Positions 57,936 through 64,000 of a stretch of DNA of 64,000 nucleotides are shown one piece after another (position 1 is the first letter of the stretch; every line of letters starts with the position of its first letter). A program made the position numbers and the translations under genes. The DNA is taken from assembly GCF_014648355.1 (NCBI RefSeq), contig NZ_BMQY01000006.1:1-64000 (forward strand). The letters are read 5' to 3'. The DNA comes from Couchioplanes azureus. GTDB taxonomy: Bacteria; Actinomycetota; Actinomycetes; Mycobacteriales; Micromonosporaceae. Under the pieces are notes generated by a model. The model was not told the DNA's origin, did no database searches, and saw only the letters and a program-made list of their open reading frames with translations.

Positions 57936-60299
57936 ATGGCGCTGCTCGAAGTCGTCGACGTCTGCAAGGAGTTCCCCGGCGTACGCGCCCTGGACGGGGT
58001 GTCCTTCACCCTGCAACCGGGCGAGGTGCACGCCCTCGTAGGAGAGAACGGCGCCGGGAAGTCCACCCTCATCAAGGTGCTCACCGGCGTCCACCACCCC
58101 GACCGCGGCCGGCTGCGCTACCGCGCCGAACCGGTCCGGTTCGACTCCCCCATGGACGCCCAGCGAGCCGGAATCTCCGCGATCCACCAGGAGGTCAACC
58201 TCATCCCGCTGATGAGCGTGGCCCACAACCTGTTCCTGGGCCGCGAGCCACGCACCACGCTCGGTCTGCTCGACGAGAAGCGCATGGTCCGCGAGGCCAG
58301 GGAAGTACTGTCGCGCTACGGCGTCGCCACCGACGTACGCCGGCAGCTCGGCACTCTCGCCCTGGGAGCCCAGCAGATGGTCGCCCTGGCCCGAGCGGTG
58401 ATGATCGACGCGAGGGTCGTCATCATGGACGAGCCCACGTCATCGCTCGAACCCCGGGAGGTAGAAACCCTCTTCGGCGTCATCGGCGACCTGCACGCCA
58501 AGGGCATCGGAGTCGTCTACGTCAGCCACCGCCTCGACGAGCTGTACCGGATCTGCGACACGGTCACGATCCTGCGCGACGGGAAGGTGGTGCACACGGG
58601 GAGGCTCGCCGATCTGGAACGCATCAGGCTCGTTGCTCTCATGCTGGGCCGGGAGACGGCGACGGTACGCCGCCAGGGCTTCACCACCTTCGCCACTCAC
58701 CACAGCAGCAGTCGTTCCGGGACACCGTCTCCGATCCCGGGGAACCGGCAGGCCACACCGAGCCCCGCCGGCGCCGACGCAGGCCGAACCCGGGCAGATG
58801 CCAATCCCGCACCGCGCCACACCGGCGCAACCGACGACGAGCCGCAAGCCCACCCAAGCCGCCCCCGCGCAACCGACGACCACGCACACGCCCACCCAAG
58901 CCACACCCGCGCAACCGACGACCACGCACACGCCCACCCAAGCCACACCCGCGCAACCGACGACCACGCACACGCCCACCCAGGCCACACCCGCGCAACC
59001 GACGACCACGCACACGCCCACCCAGGCCACACCCGCGTAACCGGCAGCGATGCACGAGCCGACACGAGCCAACGCCCCACGGACACGGACCATCCGCAAG
59101 CCGACGCAAGTCGCTCGCAGGTCGGTGAGGGCGACTCGCACGCTGGTGATCCGGTGTTGAGGGTTACCGGCCTCAGCAGCAGGCAGCGACTGCACGACAT
59201 CGGCTTCACGGTGCGGCGAGGCGAGGTCGTGGGGCTGGGTGGCCTGCTCGGTGCCGGGCGCAGCGAGACGATCAAGGCGATCGCCGGCGCGTACCCGATC
59301 GACAGCGGCGTCATCGAGGTCGACGGCAAGGACCTCAGACATCCCACCACCGTCCGGGCGGTACGGGCCGGTATCGCCGTGTTGCCCGAAGACCGCAAGG
59401 CCGAGGGAATCGTGCCTGGTCTCTCGGTGCGCGAGAACATCGCGCTCGCCGTCCTGCCCCAGCTGTCGAGGTGGGGCCTGGTGTCCGACCGCAAGATCGA
59501 CAAGATCGTGGACCGGTACATGACCCGCCTGCGAATCAAGGCATCGAGCCCCCACCAGGGCGTCGGCGACCTCTCGGGCGGCAACCAGCAGAAGGTCCTG
59601 CTAGCCCGGCTCCTCGCCACCAACCCCCGCATACTGCTCCTCGACGAGCCGACCCGCGGCATCGACATCGGCGCCAAGGCCGAGGTGCAAGGTCTGATCG
59701 ACGATCTGGCCGCCGAAGGCCTCGGCGTGGTCCTCGTCTCCTCCGACGCCGAAGAACTCGTCGAAGGCTCCCACCGAGTCGTAGTCCTCCGCGACGGCAC
59801 CATCATCGGCGAACTCCAGGGCGAGAACGTCACCACCGAAGCACTGCTGGAAACAATCGCCACGGCAGCCCACGAAGCAGCGACCGGACCGGCAGTCACC
59901 GAGCCGGTAGCTGCCACCGGACCCACAGCCGCCAAGCCAGCAGCTGCCACCGGACCCACAGCCGCCAAGCCAGCAGCTGCCACCGGACCCACAGCCGCCA
60001 AGCCAGCAGCTGCCACCGGACCCACAGCCGCCAAGCCAGCAGCTGCCACCGGACCCGTGTCCGCGGGCGAGGCAGCCGGTCCCTCACCCGCCACCGGGCC
60101 GACAGCACCCGAACCGCCACCCACCACCGGAGCCACAACACCCCAACCACCACGCCCGATCGGGCCGACAACACCCCAACCACCACCCACGACCAGAGCC
60201 ACCACATCCCAGCCGCCACCCACGACCGGGGCCGGGTCGGGGGCTGGACCGGCAGCGGCGGGCAGGGTGAGGGACCGGGAGGTTGGCGATGACGACTGA
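57936..60299 (+). CDS. Dual-domain sugar ABC ATPase with giant repetitive linker and tail
   Basis: 787 residues; the family is ~500. NBD1 (~1-245): Walker A GENGAGKST, degenerate signature LALGAQQMV, Walker B VVIMDEPTSSLEP. A linker of ~160 residues (~246-405) holds a Pro/Ala/Ser-rich start and a His-rich tandem repeat (see the 58866-59033 entry). NBD2 (~406-648): degenerate P-loop GGLLGAGRSE, LSGGNQQKVLLARLL, Walker B LLLDEPTRGID. A ~139-residue tail carries 11-residue repeats. The core matches CUT2-type ATPases such as YtfR/RbsA, powering sugar uptake with the two permeases downstream. Starts 5 bases after the GH2 stop; overlaps permease 1 by 11 bases. The linker is the unusual feature. Confidence 0.9.
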   Translation: MALLEVVDVCKEFPGVRALDGVSFTLQPGEVHALVGENGAGKSTLIKVLTGVHHPDRGRLRYRAEPVRFDSPMDAQRAGISAIHQEVNLIPLMSVAHNLFLGREPRTTLGLLDEKRMVREAREVLSRYGVATDVRRQLGTLALGAQQMVALARAVMIDARVVIMDEPTSSLEPREVETLFGVIGDLHAKGIGVVYVSHRLDELYRICDTVTILRDGKVVHTGRLADLERIRLVALMLGRETATVRRQGFTTFATHHSSSRSGTPSPIPGNRQATPSPAGADAGRTRADANPAPRHTGATDDEPQAHPSRPRATDDHAHAHPSHTRATDDHAHAHPSHTRATDDHAHAHPGHTRATDDHAHAHPGHTRVTGSDARADTSQRPTDTDHPQADASRSQVGEGDSHAGDPVLRVTGLSSRQRLHDIGFTVRRGEVVGLGGLLGAGRSETIKAIAGAYPIDSGVIEVDGKDLRHPTTVRAVRAGIAVLPEDRKAEGIVPGLSVRENIALAVLPQLSRWGLVSDRKIDKIVDRYMTRLRIKASSPHQGVGDLSGGNQQKVLLARLLATNPRILLLDEPTRGIDIGAKAEVQGLIDDLAAEGLGVVLVSSDAEELVEGSHRVVVLRDGTIIGELQGENVTTEALLETIATAAHEAATGPAVTEPVAATGPTAAKPAAATGPTAAKPAAATGPTAAKPAAATGPTAAKPAAATGPVSAGEAAGPSPATGPTAPEPPPTTGATTPQPPRPIGPTTPQPPPTTRATTSQPPPTTGAGSGAGPAAAGRVRDREVGDDD
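58866..59033 (+). repeat. 42-bp (14-residue) His-rich minisatellite in the ABC ATPase linker
   Basis: Four near-perfect units at 58866, 58908, 58950 and 58992, preceded by a degenerate copy (58824-58865) and followed by another. Each encodes the pattern ATDDHAHAHPSHTR (S to G in the last two), i.e. four His and two Asp per unit, about residues 311-366. The unit length is a multiple of three, so the frame is kept. His-Asp clusters of this density can bind divalent metals. Confidence 0.92.
59911..60057 (+). repeat. 33-bp (11-residue) tandem repeat in the ABC ATPase tail
   Basis: Four exact units at 59911, 59944, 59977 and 60010 plus a partial fifth, each encoding AATGPTAAKPA-type sequence, in frame. 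After the repeats, Pro/Thr-rich sequence continues to the stop. The arrangement resembles a disordered Pro/Ala/Lys linker without known binding function. Confidence 0.92.
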
Positions 60300-61260
60300 G
60301 GTCGTGGCCGGCACACGGGCCGGCGTGGATCTGGGACGGGTGCGCGCCTGGTTGCCGAGATACGGCGTCTACGCCGCGATCTTGGTCCTGGTCACTTACA
60401 ACCTGCTCTTCACGCCGAACTTCTTGACCCCGGGCAACCTACGGACCCAGCTCGTCCAGGTCGCGCCGGTCGTCATCGTGGCGCTCGGTATGGCGCTGGT
60501 GATCGGCACGGAGGGAATCGACCTGTCGGTCGGCTCCGTGATGGCCCTGGCGGCCGCACTGATCCCGCTCTATCTCGGTTACGGTGTCATCGCTGCCGTC
60601 CTCGTCTCGGTGCTCGCCGGTGTGGCGGTTGGCCTGGTGAACGGCATCCTGGTCGCCCGGGTCGGATTGCAGCCCATCGTGGCGACCCTGGCGCTCTTCG
60701 TCGGCGGCCGGGGGCTCGCGCTGGTCATCTCCGACGGGCAGCTCAAGGACATCCGCAATGAGAGCCTGCTCTTCCTCGGCTCGGGAGACCTGCTCGGCAT
60801 TCCCGTGCTGGTGTGGATCGCCGCACTGCTGGTCGTCGTCATCGCCTTCGTGGTCCGGCGGACGGTTCTCGGCCGACGGCTCCTCGCCATCGGCGGCAAT
60901 CGCCCCGCCACGGAACTCGCCGGTGTTCCGGTCACCCGCGTCCTCCTCACTGTCTACATAGTCTGTGCCGTTCTCGCTTCCTTTGCCGGCTTGCTGGCAG
61001 TCGCTCGCATCCAGTCCAGCGACGCCTCCTCGGTAGGAATGCTCATCGAGCTTTCCGCCATCACCGCCGTGGTGGTCGGCGGCACCCCGCTGACCGGCGG
61101 CACGATCCGCGTCGTGGGCACCGTCGCCGGCGCTCTCCTCATGCAACTCGTGGTGGCCACGATGATCAGGCACAACCTGCAGCCGTCCACCACCGAGATG
61201 GTGCAGGCCGTCATCATCCTCGTCGCCGTCTTCGCCGCCCGGGAGAGGAAGAACCGGTGA
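60289..61260 (+). CDS. Sugar ABC transporter permease 1 (YtfT/YjfF/RbsC type)
   Basis: 323 residues, ATG 60289 with GGGAGG 6 bases upstream, inside the end of the ATPase gene. Nine to ten membrane helices with branched-chain/CUT2 permease marks: VALGMALVIGTEGIDLSVGSVMALAAAL, NGILVARVGLQPIVATLALFVGGRGLAL, and GGNRPATELAGVPVTRV before a final pair of helices with AVVVGGTPLTGG. It should form half of the pore. Its stop overlaps permease 2 by GTGA. Confidence 0.92.
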   Translation: MTTEVVAGTRAGVDLGRVRAWLPRYGVYAAILVLVTYNLLFTPNFLTPGNLRTQLVQVAPVVIVALGMALVIGTEGIDLSVGSVMALAAALIPLYLGYGVIAAVLVSVLAGVAVGLVNGILVARVGLQPIVATLALFVGGRGLALVISDGQLKDIRNESLLFLGSGDLLGIPVLVWIAALLVVVIAFVVRRTVLGRRLLAIGGNRPATELAGVPVTRVLLTVYIVCAVLASFAGLLAVARIQSSDASSVGMLIELSAITAVVVGGTPLTGGTIRVVGTVAGALLMQLVVATMIRHNLQPSTTEMVQAVIILVAVFAARERKNR

Positions 61261-62552
61261 ACCCGCACACCGATCCCTCGACAACCCCAGCCAACACCGC
61301 CAACCCAGCCAGAGTGACCAACGCGGCCTCCACCGCAGCCTCAATCACCGATCCGTCCACACCACCCTCAGGTACCGCTGAGCCCCTCACCGCCGCCGGC
61401 ATCACCAAGCCAGCCACAGCATCCGCGGACACCACCAACGCAGCCACAGCATCCGCCGACACCACCAACGCAGCCACAGCCGTCAGCACGGCGACCGCTG
61501 CCATCGCAGCCACGAAGCGAGCCCGCGCCGACGCGGCTGTGGGCACACCGGCGTCCGCGAGTGCGGCCGCAGCCGCTGCGAGGGAGTTACGCCGGTCGCA
61601 GCGCATGGTCCGGCTCGCGGACCTGATGCAGCGGCAGGGGGCGCTGGCCGTTCTCGTCGTGGTCGTGGTCATCGCCTCAGCGGCGTTTCCCCACTTCCGC
61701 AGTTATGACAACGCCGGCACGATTCTGATCGCCGCGGCGCCGCCCGCCCTTCTCGCGCTAGGTATGACCTTTGTCATCATCACCGGTGGCATCGACCTTT
61801 CCGTGGGATCTCTTTATGTCCTCGGCGGCGTCATCTCAGCCTATGCGTCTCAATGGGGTTTGATTCTTGCATTCTTCTTACCATTGGTCGCATGTGGACT
61901 GATCGGCTTGATGAACGGCTTGCTCATCGCCCACACTCGGATGGCGGCGTTCATCGTCACTCTCGCCACGCTTCTCGGCGCTCGCGGTCTCATGCGTGCC
62001 CTCAGCGATGAGGGCTCCACCACCTACCTCGTGAGCGACGAGGCGTTTCGCGGCTTCGGCACGGGCGCGTTCCTCGGCATCGGTTACCCGGTGTGGCTGG
62101 TGGCGGCGGTTTTTGGAGTAGGCATGGTGCTGTTGTCACGTACCCGGTTCGGACATGCGGTCTATGCCGTCGGCGGGAGTGAGGATGCCGCGCGCCTCAT
62201 GGGCGTGGCCGTGCGGCGTACCAAAGTGTGGGTCTATGTCATTTCCGGCCTGCTCGCGGGCCTGGCCGGGGCGATCAACGCGGCCAAGCTCGGCTCCGGT
62301 GTCACGGTGCTGGGCGTCGGCATGGAGCTGGACGCCATCGCGGCGGTGGTGATCGGCGGCACGCTGCTGACCGGCGGCGCGGGCACCATCGCGGGCACGA
62401 TCGCGGGTGTCCTACTACTGGGGGTGATCCAGAACATGCTCAATCAGGTGGGCAGTGTGCCCACCAGTTATCAGCAGGTCATCAGCGGTGCCTTCCTCGC
62501 CGCGGTGGTGGTTGCACAGACCTTCCTGGTTCGCCTCCGTCGCATGACCTGA
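61257..62552 (+). CDS. Sugar ABC transporter permease 2 with repetitive N-terminal extension
   Basis: 431 residues from GTG 61257 (GTGA overlap with permease 1). The first ~117 residues are Ala/Thr-rich, low-complexity and predicted disordered, with a 10-residue repeat (see 61411-61480). The membrane body begins near RLADLMQRQGALAVL and has the CUT2 marks LLALGMTFVIITGGIDLSVGSL, LLIAHTRMAAFIVTLATLLGARG, GGSEDAARLMGV, AVVIGGTLLTGGAGT. Known YjfF-type permeases lack such an extension; an internal start (for example ATG near 61605) cannot be ruled out. Confidence 0.9.
   Translation: MNPHTDPSTTPANTANPARVTNAASTAASITDPSTPPSGTAEPLTAAGITKPATASADTTNAATASADTTNAATAVSTATAAIAATKRARADAAVGTPASASAAAAAARELRRSQRMVRLADLMQRQGALAVLVVVVVIASAAFPHFRSYDNAGTILIAAAPPALLALGMTFVIITGGIDLSVGSLYVLGGVISAYASQWGLILAFFLPLVACGLIGLMNGLLIAHTRMAAFIVTLATLLGARGLMRALSDEGSTTYLVSDEAFRGFGTGAFLGIGYPVWLVAAVFGVGMVLLSRTRFGHAVYAVGGSEDAARLMGVAVRRTKVWVYVISGLLAGLAGAINAAKLGSGVTVLGVGMELDAIAAVVIGGTLLTGGAGTIAGTIAGVLLLGVIQNMLNQVGSVPTSYQQVISGAFLAAVVVAQTFLVRLRRMT
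61411..61480 (+). repeat. 30-bp tandem repeat in permease 2 N-terminal extension
   Basis: Two units (61411-61440, 61441-61470), differing by one base, plus a 10-base partial unit; they encode ATASADTTNA-type repeats in frame. Confidence 0.85.
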
Positions 62553-63207
62553 AACGGAGCTCCACCGACCGGAACACAGACGCGCGGAACACAGACACAA
62601 ACGGGCGGAAGGGGGCCCCAGGGGCCGGAGGCACATGAGTCGATCGCCGCATGCCCGCCGGAGGTCGCACGAGCGGAGAGCGCGACCCTGTTCCGCACCA
62701 AAGCGGGACGGGGCGAGGCGCGACGCCGCGGGGCGAGGCGCGGCGGGGCGCGGTGCGGCGAGGCGCGACGGCCGCAACGGGGCGGGGCGCGAGGCGACGC
62801 GGCGAGGCGCGACGCGGCAGGGCGCGACGCGGCAGGGCGCGACGCGGCGAGGCACGACGCGGCAGGGCGCGACGCGGCGAGGCACGACGCGGCAGGGCGC
62901 GACGCGGCGAGGCACGACGCGGCAGGGCGCGACGCGGCGAGGCACGACGCGGCGAGGCGCGACGGGCGCAACGGGAAGGGGTGCGACGGGGGCGGCGCAG
63001 CGGGGCGGGACGCGACGGGACGAGGCGCGACCGGGCGCGACGCGACGAGACGAGGCGCGACGCGACGAGGCGCGACGGGACGAGGCGCGACGCGACGCGA
63101 CGAGACGAGGCGCGACGCGACGAGGCGCGACGGGACGAGGCGCGACGCGACGAGGCGTGTCCACCGGGCGCGCAAGCTGTGAACGCAACGCCTGGCAGGA
63201 TGGCCGC
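62553..63207 (+). other. 655-base gene-free region, mostly repeats
   Basis: From the permease stop to the DCC-protein start. The first ~140 bases contain a short direct repeat (CGGAACACAGAC-type, 62573-62605) and no promoter that I can see; the rest is the T-depleted repeat array described separately. One frame stays open through it and into the DCC gene, but it encodes only Arg/Gly/Ala low-complexity sequence and I do not call it coding. Confidence 0.7.
62693..63157 (+). repeat. T-depleted GC-rich tandem repeat array
   Basis: 465 bases with only two T on the + strand (62754 and 62982). Block 1 (62821-62940): four 30-bp units, three identical, each a pair of 15-mers of GGCGCGACGCGGCGA type. 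Block 2 (about 63047-63153): two ~55-bp units. Runs of four G occur near 62700-62790. All composed of short C, G, A words; the opposite strand is nearly A-free. Confidence 0.95.
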
Positions 63208-63603
63208 ATGACCACGCCCACCCTCGTGTACGACGGCGATTGCGCATTCTGCACCTCCTGCGCCCACTTCATCGAGCGCCGTATCCCGACACGCGCCACC
63301 GTGGTCCCCTGGCAGTTCGCCGACCTGGACGCCCTCGGCCTGACGCTCGAGCAGGTGGAGGAGGCCGTGCAGTGGGTCGCCGCGGACGGCACGATCGCCT
63401 CCGGGCCGGACGCCGTCGCGCTGCTGCTGCGCGACGCCGGGCGGCTGTGGGAGGTGCCCGGGCGGGCGTTGCAGCTCAAGCCCGTCGGCCTGCTGGCCTG
63501 GCCGGTGTACCGATGGATCGCCGGCCACCGCCACCTCATGCCGGGCGGCACCGCGGCGTGCTCGTTGCCGCGGGCGACGCGCGAGCGACTGCACGACGCC
63601 TGA
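63208..63603 (+). CDS. DCC-family thiol-disulfide oxidoreductase-like protein (DUF393)
   Basis: 131 residues from ATG 63208. Starts TLVYDGDCAFCTSCAHFIERR, the DxxCxxC motif of the DCC/DUF393 family, followed by a thioredoxin-like fold and GRLWEVPGRAL. The CxxC pair could form a redox disulfide; the family has no settled function. A small hydrophobic patch near LLAWPVYRWIAG may touch the membrane. It follows directly after the repeat array, so its promoter may lie within that array. Confidence 0.88.
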   Translation: MTTPTLVYDGDCAFCTSCAHFIERRIPTRATVVPWQFADLDALGLTLEQVEEAVQWVAADGTIASGPDAVALLLRDAGRLWEVPGRALQLKPVGLLAWPVYRWIAGHRHLMPGGTAACSLPRATRERLHDA

Positions 63604-63753
63604 TCAGAACTGCATCGGCGGCTGACCGACCGCGCCCGGAACGTCCCCCGTGGCGTCGGTCGCCTCGGTGGACGCCGCGCTCCGCGCGGGACAGCGCAGG
63701 CACGACCGGGCGAGGCCGCCGACGCCTGGTCCTCCTGCCGGGGAACGTGCAAC

Positions 63754-64000
63754 TCAGTTCAGGCGTGCCGTACCCAACACGTGCCCCTGACCGTCCGCCA
63801 CGGCCACCGTGCTCACGTCCCGCAGCTGGATCGAGCTCGCCCCGGTCACCCTGGCGTTCCCGCTCGGGGTGGTTCCCCACGTCGCGGCCTGTTCGGCCGC
63901 GCCGCCGCCGGCCCTGCGGACCTGGCAGACGAAGGGGCCACGCCCGCTGAGCCGGGACACGGTCAGATCGATCGAGACGCCCCAGGTCTTGCCGGTGAGC
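63754..64000 (-). CDS. Partial protein, possible anti-sigma factor C-terminal domain
   Basis: The frame runs off the right edge and ends with TGA at 63754-63756. The visible ~80 residues (KTWGVSIDLTVSRLSGRGPF, CQVRRAGG, AATWGTTPSGNARVTGASSIQLRDVSTVAVADGQGHVLG) look like the beta-rich C-terminal domain found after the zinc-finger and membrane helix of actinobacterial anti-sigma factors (the AATW...ATVTGATSI pattern). The N-terminal ZAS domain, which would prove it, is outside the window. Confidence 0.45.
   Translation of the reverse strand, partial: LTGKTWGVSIDLTVSRLSGRGPFVCQVRRAGGGAAEQAATWGTTPSGNARVTGASSIQLRDVSTVAVADGQGHVLGTARLN

Follow-up and report, generated by a model that had tools for sequence, protein, structure and literature searches.

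In Couchioplanes azureus, the DNA that separates an ABC permease gene from a gene encoding a DCC1-like thiol-disulfide oxidoreductase includes a stretch of 465 nucleotides in which one strand carries only two T residues, which raises the question of how such DNA came to occupy an operon junction and whether it has any function there. The stretch lies within a window of 64,000 nucleotides, to which coordinates refer unless another contig or locus is named (Table 1); the source assembly comprises 7.6 Mb in 54 contigs, and the array is located 62.7 kb inside a 449-kb contig. The genes to its left, read rightwards, encode a glycoside hydrolase with AbfB domains, a two-domain ABC ATPase and two BPD_transp_2 permeases, and this operon probably encodes a sugar importer. 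The first-pass annotation had placed the array between an expanded operon and the DCC gene, in agreement with the gene boundaries, since the permease stop at 62552 and the DCC start at 63208 leave a gap of 655 nt. The best named relatives of the DCC protein are from Nucisporomicrobium, Pseudosporangium, Amorphoplanes and Actinoplanes, all members of the Micromonosporaceae. Very probably the array is a neutral or nearly neutral minisatellite grown by slippage, of a known kind and extreme in length and purity.

Table 1. Features of the permease-DCC junction and the adjoining operon, in window coordinates
Feature	Position	Strand	Remarks
Coding expansion in the linker of the ATPase domains	58728..59150	+	42-bp repeats, T 3.8%; absent in eight relatives
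Coding expansion at the ATPase C-terminus	59871..60296	+	33- and 66-bp repeats, T 4.5%
ABC permease (BPD_transp_2)	61260..62552	+	N-terminal repeat-bearing extension, ~61260-61574
Left non-tandem part of the extra DNA	62553..62692	+	A 24%, T 6%
Open frame spanning the array, in register with DCC	62635..63603	+	322 aa; GGAGG three bases before ATG
Nearly T-free pentanucleotide-based minisatellite	62703..63157	+	words CG-V-G-R; cyclic alignment, Tandem Repeats Finder
Exact or near-exact 30-bp (2 x 15) repeat sub-block	62825..62953	+	30-mers occurring four times
55-bp (11 x 5) higher-order duplication sub-block	63036..63151	+	identical 29-mers at 63036 and 63091
Right non-tandem part of the extra DNA	63158..63195	+	
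12-nt spacer before the DCC start codon	63196..63207	+	CAGGATGGCCGC here, CAGGATGGCCAC in G046
DCC1-like thiol-disulfide oxidoreductase gene	63208..63603	+	residue 1 aligns with many relatives

The + strand between 62693 and 63157 contains 241 G, 145 C, 77 A and two T (at 62754 and 62982), where the T frequency of the window (13.2%) predicts 61; the count of two T agrees with the first-pass annotation. The binomial probability of finding two or fewer T at one given place is approximately 7e-26, although the letters of a repeat are not independent and the figure therefore says merely that this is not random sequence. The repeat proper starts at approximately 62703, the first ten bases of the 465 being non-repetitive, and in the best cyclic alignment its 455 nt resolve into some 93 words of the form C-G-V-G-R, with three one-base deletions and no insertions. 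The commonest words are CGCGA, CGAGG, CGCGG, CGGGA and CGGGG; C, G and G occupy columns 1, 2 and 4 in 87 of 92, 82 of 92 and 87 of 91 cases, while column 3 carries C, G or A (50/19/19) and column 5 G or A (50/41 of 92). This basic 5-bp unit had been overlooked in the earlier annotation. The 15- and 30-bp words described there correspond to the self-identity peaks at lags 15 (0.75) and 30 (0.72), which are accompanied by peaks at lag 5 (0.65) and at further multiples of 5, and the higher-order repeat of approximately 55 bp is real, since 63036-63064 is identical to 63091-63119. Tandem Repeats Finder reports 31 copies at period 15 (75% match, score 381) and 90 copies at period 5 (65%). The 15- and 30-bp blocks lie in the first half of the array and the 55-bp block in the second, and the longest exact repeat extends over 99 nt, with starts at 62825 and 62855. 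The array thus has the structure of a microsatellite-derived minisatellite, in which a short root unit is repeated head to tail and the copies are degenerate. It contains no stop codon in any of the six frames, a property likewise overlooked in the earlier annotation but a trivial one, because every stop codon contains both T and A.

The array was compared with a sample of 2.45 Mb from seven genomes, comprising 1.25 Mb of its own genome and 0.2 Mb of each of six others. It is the longest stretch in this sample with at most two T (or at most two A), the next longest being 340 nt (in G017) and 266 nt (in its own genome). Runs of at least 100 nt free of T or of A number 27 in the own-genome part of the sample (1.25 Mb), compared with 20 in the other six genomes together (1.2 Mb). 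We also considered whether the own genome is a repeat-rich outlier, and found it to be ordinary, with 12.9 arrays of score 100 or more per 100 kb against 7.0-12.0 in the six others. Five arrays of this score lie within approximately 4.4 kb around the locus, a local cluster that is not unique, as 5-kb stretches elsewhere in the sample hold up to eight; a dense tandem-array cluster in the same genome (contig C6, 298850-304520) reaches this density. Nor do arrays of period 5 form a special class, as they show merely a mild excess over periods 4, 7 and 8: between genes, the own sample contains nine period-5 segments (four of which are this array) and the six others eleven, compared with 6 vs 7 for period 4, 5 vs 4 for period 7 and 3 vs 5 for period 8, and a 400-kb Markov control gave none for any of these four periods. 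The gene caller used for these counts was crude, missing the ATPase of the window and shortening the second permease, so that some of the arrays counted as intergenic are in fact coding, that of the ATPase linker being one. Of 163 non-genic arrays of score 100 or more, 41 lie between convergent genes, whose gaps account for 17.5% of gap length, a moderate excess that fits tolerated spacers away from promoters.

The age of the array relative to its relatives is established by comparison of the same junction. Among 62 fetched DCC loci of relatives, 23 have the permease upstream; eight of them duplicate a genome already represented, which leaves 15 distinct relatives. In 14 of the 15 the permease-DCC gap is 4-69 nt (mostly 9 or 12), against 655 nt here. 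The exception is the nearest relative, G046, in which the gap measures 239 nt and the permease and DCC are 92% and 91% identical to those described here. In both expanded genomes a 12-nt piece, CAGGATGGCC(G/A)C, immediately precedes the DCC start and matches the entire short gap of many relatives in both position and length, so the extra DNA sits between the permease stop and this piece. Its left non-tandem part has no counterpart in the gaps of the 15 relatives with the gene pair. The inserts of the two expanded genomes show no recognisable kinship, since 53 of 200 shuffles score at least as well as their best local alignment, and the DNA flanking the junction aligns between them at 87-92%; the array therefore either postdates the split from G046 or replaced earlier content. 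These comparisons indicate that the array is young, lineage-restricted and locally grown, as befits a minisatellite. On the far side of the DCC gene, the 150 nt at 63604-63753 (T 10.7%) are almost without counterpart in G046, where the next conserved block starts 4 nt after the DCC block.

The operon itself has also been expanded. Compared with eight named relatives, the ATPase carries approximately 141 extra residues between its domains and approximately 142 past the last aligned residue, so that some 283 residues of this protein (57936-60299) are low-complexity sequence absent from all eight. The second permease begins approximately 100 residues before its aligned part, where no more than about 20 would fit in the relatives. 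At these ATPase and permease sites G046 has low-complexity sequence that is shorter or different. The first-pass annotation had offered three explanations for the array, and the one that fits best is that it arose by the same slippage process as its surroundings, since of the 15 relatives only the nearest shares with this genome a much lengthened junction, and the coding expansions are repeat-rich.

The near absence of T requires no special process. At roughly the composition of this genome, three in four 5-bp founders, and one in five of 15 bp, would lack A or T altogether. By the rough gene calls, 8 of 15 between-gene arrays with periods below 16 (this array included) contain at most 1% of A or of T, compared with 11 of 146 arrays with periods of 16 or more. 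Words present only once or twice, which reflect unamplified mutation, include two C>T and three G>A changes (read from the word list, and small in number) and give a weak indication that the rare changes have no clear strand bias. When all copies are compared with CGCGG there are 53 G>A and only two C>T changes, a skew that probably reflects re-amplification of a few changed words.

Matching arrays were sought in the own and related genomes, as the first-pass annotation had proposed. A search of the own genome with the whole array returned seven other matches, all weak, the best extending over 144 nt at 74%, and the pattern (CGNGR)6 occurs there at this array only; dispersed related copies, such as a MIRU-like element would have, were thus not found. 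The array DNA gave at least one match in 13 of 13 further genomes of the same genus and in one of nine from other families. Among the 28 fetched and five own-genome loci examined are further arrays built on pentamers or on 15-bp units, located at unrelated sites, and among the matches in relatives no fixed orientation of the T-poor strand to the genes was found. The similar words in the arrays of relatives suggested a genus-wide pentamer code, which was rejected on the strength of a reversed control of equal composition: (CGNGR)6 is present in 36 of 60 genus-sample genomes, the own genome included, and its reverse in 37 of 60 (in the class sample (CGNGR)6 occurs in 25 of 197, again including the own genome). 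The proposal of a nucleoid-protein binding array is not borne out by this distribution, and such arrays appear, on the sequence comparisons, to be a background habit of these genomes and neither a binding code nor an element present in several copies.

The remaining proposal, that a G-quadruplex or R-loop formed in the array acts as a barrier to transcription or replication and insulates DCC from the operon, can draw on the base composition: across the window, the 400-nt G4Hunter mean and the 450-nt GC skew both reach their maximum in the array, on the RNA-like strand, and six two-tetrad motifs are present where 3.4 would be expected by length. Against it, only one canonical motif (G3+, loops 1-7) occurs in the array, at 62964-62992, out of four on the + and five on the - strand of the whole window. 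Moreover, the RNA-like strand folds no better than its shuffles (z-score -0.48), neither a sigma-70-type promoter nor an intrinsic terminator was found between 62400 and 63300, and similar arrays in relatives have no fixed orientation to the genes, so that we regard a barrier as very unlikely. No Rfam match was obtained in 61900-64000 up to E = 1. Translation of the array as an N-terminal tail of approximately 190 residues fused to DCC is highly improbable as well. The frame is open, in register with DCC and has a GGAGG three bases ahead of its ATG (Table 1), but every frame is open here, an in-register frame arises by chance one time in three, the 55-bp duplication, being no multiple of 3, shifts the frame, and the codon positions differ little in composition. 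In addition, matches in relatives start at or near residue 1 of the protein predicted from 63208 and the G046 insert lacks a start codon, and 62635 is thus probably not the real start of the DCC gene. A second frame, 62651-63211, ends in the ATGA of the DCC start, which is also present in insert-less relatives (L010, L011 and L012) with gaps of 9-12 nt.

A different possibility is that the junction is a U-poor spacer kept by selection, inserts being tolerated only when the sense RNA is almost free of U and so offers no terminator tract, polarity or nuclease site. It would account for the T-poor yet unrelated inserts in the two sister species (2.6% T here and 3.3% in G046, with 8 T in 239), and T makes up 3.8-7.0% of the sense strand in the operon's coding inserts (4.2-4.6% in those measured in G046), against a mean of 15.4% in 385 co-directional gaps of 100-1500 nt. 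When gaps of this kind at least 200 nt long were considered (202 in number), that of the array alone had 5% T or less, and two were A-poor to the same degree. That chance should twice have supplied a T-poor founder at one junction is not very likely, except where the two inserts share a T-poor ancestor, and this shared T-poverty, a comparison of two species made with a crude gene caller, is a loose end that is worth a look. Selection of this kind is nevertheless very unlikely: the G046 insert contains TAA and TAG and has no ATG, GTG or TTG, so is not kept open for translation, and the stretch after DCC that is nearly absent from G046 has a T content of 10.7%. Coding inserts, for their part, tend to be T-poor anyway. 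T-free codons encode hydrophilic residues, for which reason T-poverty in coding arrays is to be expected in part, and 72 of the 111 coding arrays of the sample have more A than T on the sense strand. We consider very unlikely the broader proposition that junction and operon linkers alike accept fast-changing inserts, free in sequence so long as the sense strand is almost T-free, under a composition rule on transcript spacers. Such a rule, if true, would keep cryptic termination, polarity and nuclease cutting away and would mean that T-poverty outlasts sequence turnover in sister species; were the shared T-poverty proved to be selected, it would specify which spacers an operon can accept. Finally, an assembly artefact is extremely unlikely. 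The number of contigs and the 99-nt exact repeat mean that the copy number may be miscounted, but the array is degenerate, is situated far inside a large contig and has flanks that are syntenic with those of relatives.

We therefore return to the minisatellite grown by slippage, a mechanism that we infer from the near-perfect 5-bp register with re-amplified words. Growth would have started from a short GC-rich word resembling CGCGG or CGCGA within extra DNA at the permease-DCC junction and proceeded through slippage during replication and through unequal exchange, both in steps of 5 bp and in blocks of 15, 30 and 55 bp, T remaining absent because the founding and re-amplified words had none. 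At present the array would serve as part of a passive spacer of approximately 640 nt where most relatives hold the genes 4-69 nt apart, and its likely effect, if any, would be to couple DCC less tightly to the operon. Neutrality is presumed in this account. Three observations speak against the account as a whole, namely that the array is the most extreme in 2.45 Mb, that its departures from CGCGG are skewed towards G>A when all copies are counted, and that the unrelated insert of G046 is also T-poor.

Like variable-number tandem repeats in general, the array is lineage-restricted and the nearest relative has other junction content. Subirana and Messeguer (2019, PMC6749651) describe short-repeat prokaryotic satellites as often related to locally mutated microsatellites; in two Burkholderia species, units of 6-8 nt gave rise to the CG-rich satellites, and four actinobacteria appear in the first table of that paper. 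Compared with the satellites described there, the array has a root unit of 5 nt, blocks of 15, 30 and 55 bp and an almost T-free strand, and no related family was found scattered through its genome. The array resembles the mycobacterial MIRU in lying between co-directional genes and in being crossed by an open frame whose end overlaps the following start codon as ATGA. It differs in that MIRU are described as apparently mobile and present in many copies (PMC12548453), whereas the array pattern occupies one place in the genome, and in that the ATGA is already present in the three short-gap relatives named above. A small survey of open-access literature, confined to titles and the openings of abstracts, found no description of such arrays. 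The array thus provides a clean example of the lineage-specific minisatellites that high-GC actinobacteria grow at operon junctions and in gene linkers, here within the time taken for roughly 8-13% change in neighbouring DNA, and illustrates that a striking absence of T from one strand can stem from a short founding word with no need for a strand-specific process.

Several other arrays were observed in the same genome. A 12-bp array, GAGACCGGCGAA, with 12 copies and almost free of T, is located 3 kb to the right of the junction (contig C6, 66049-66195, in L140). Others include 31 copies of the 7-bp unit CCGCCAT (L183, 6361-6575) and a T-free array of a 17-bp unit in 8.8 copies (L163, 9133-9282). 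A 198-nt A-free, pentamer-based array (L005, 1495-1692) lies just after what appears by eye to be a terminator-like hairpin.
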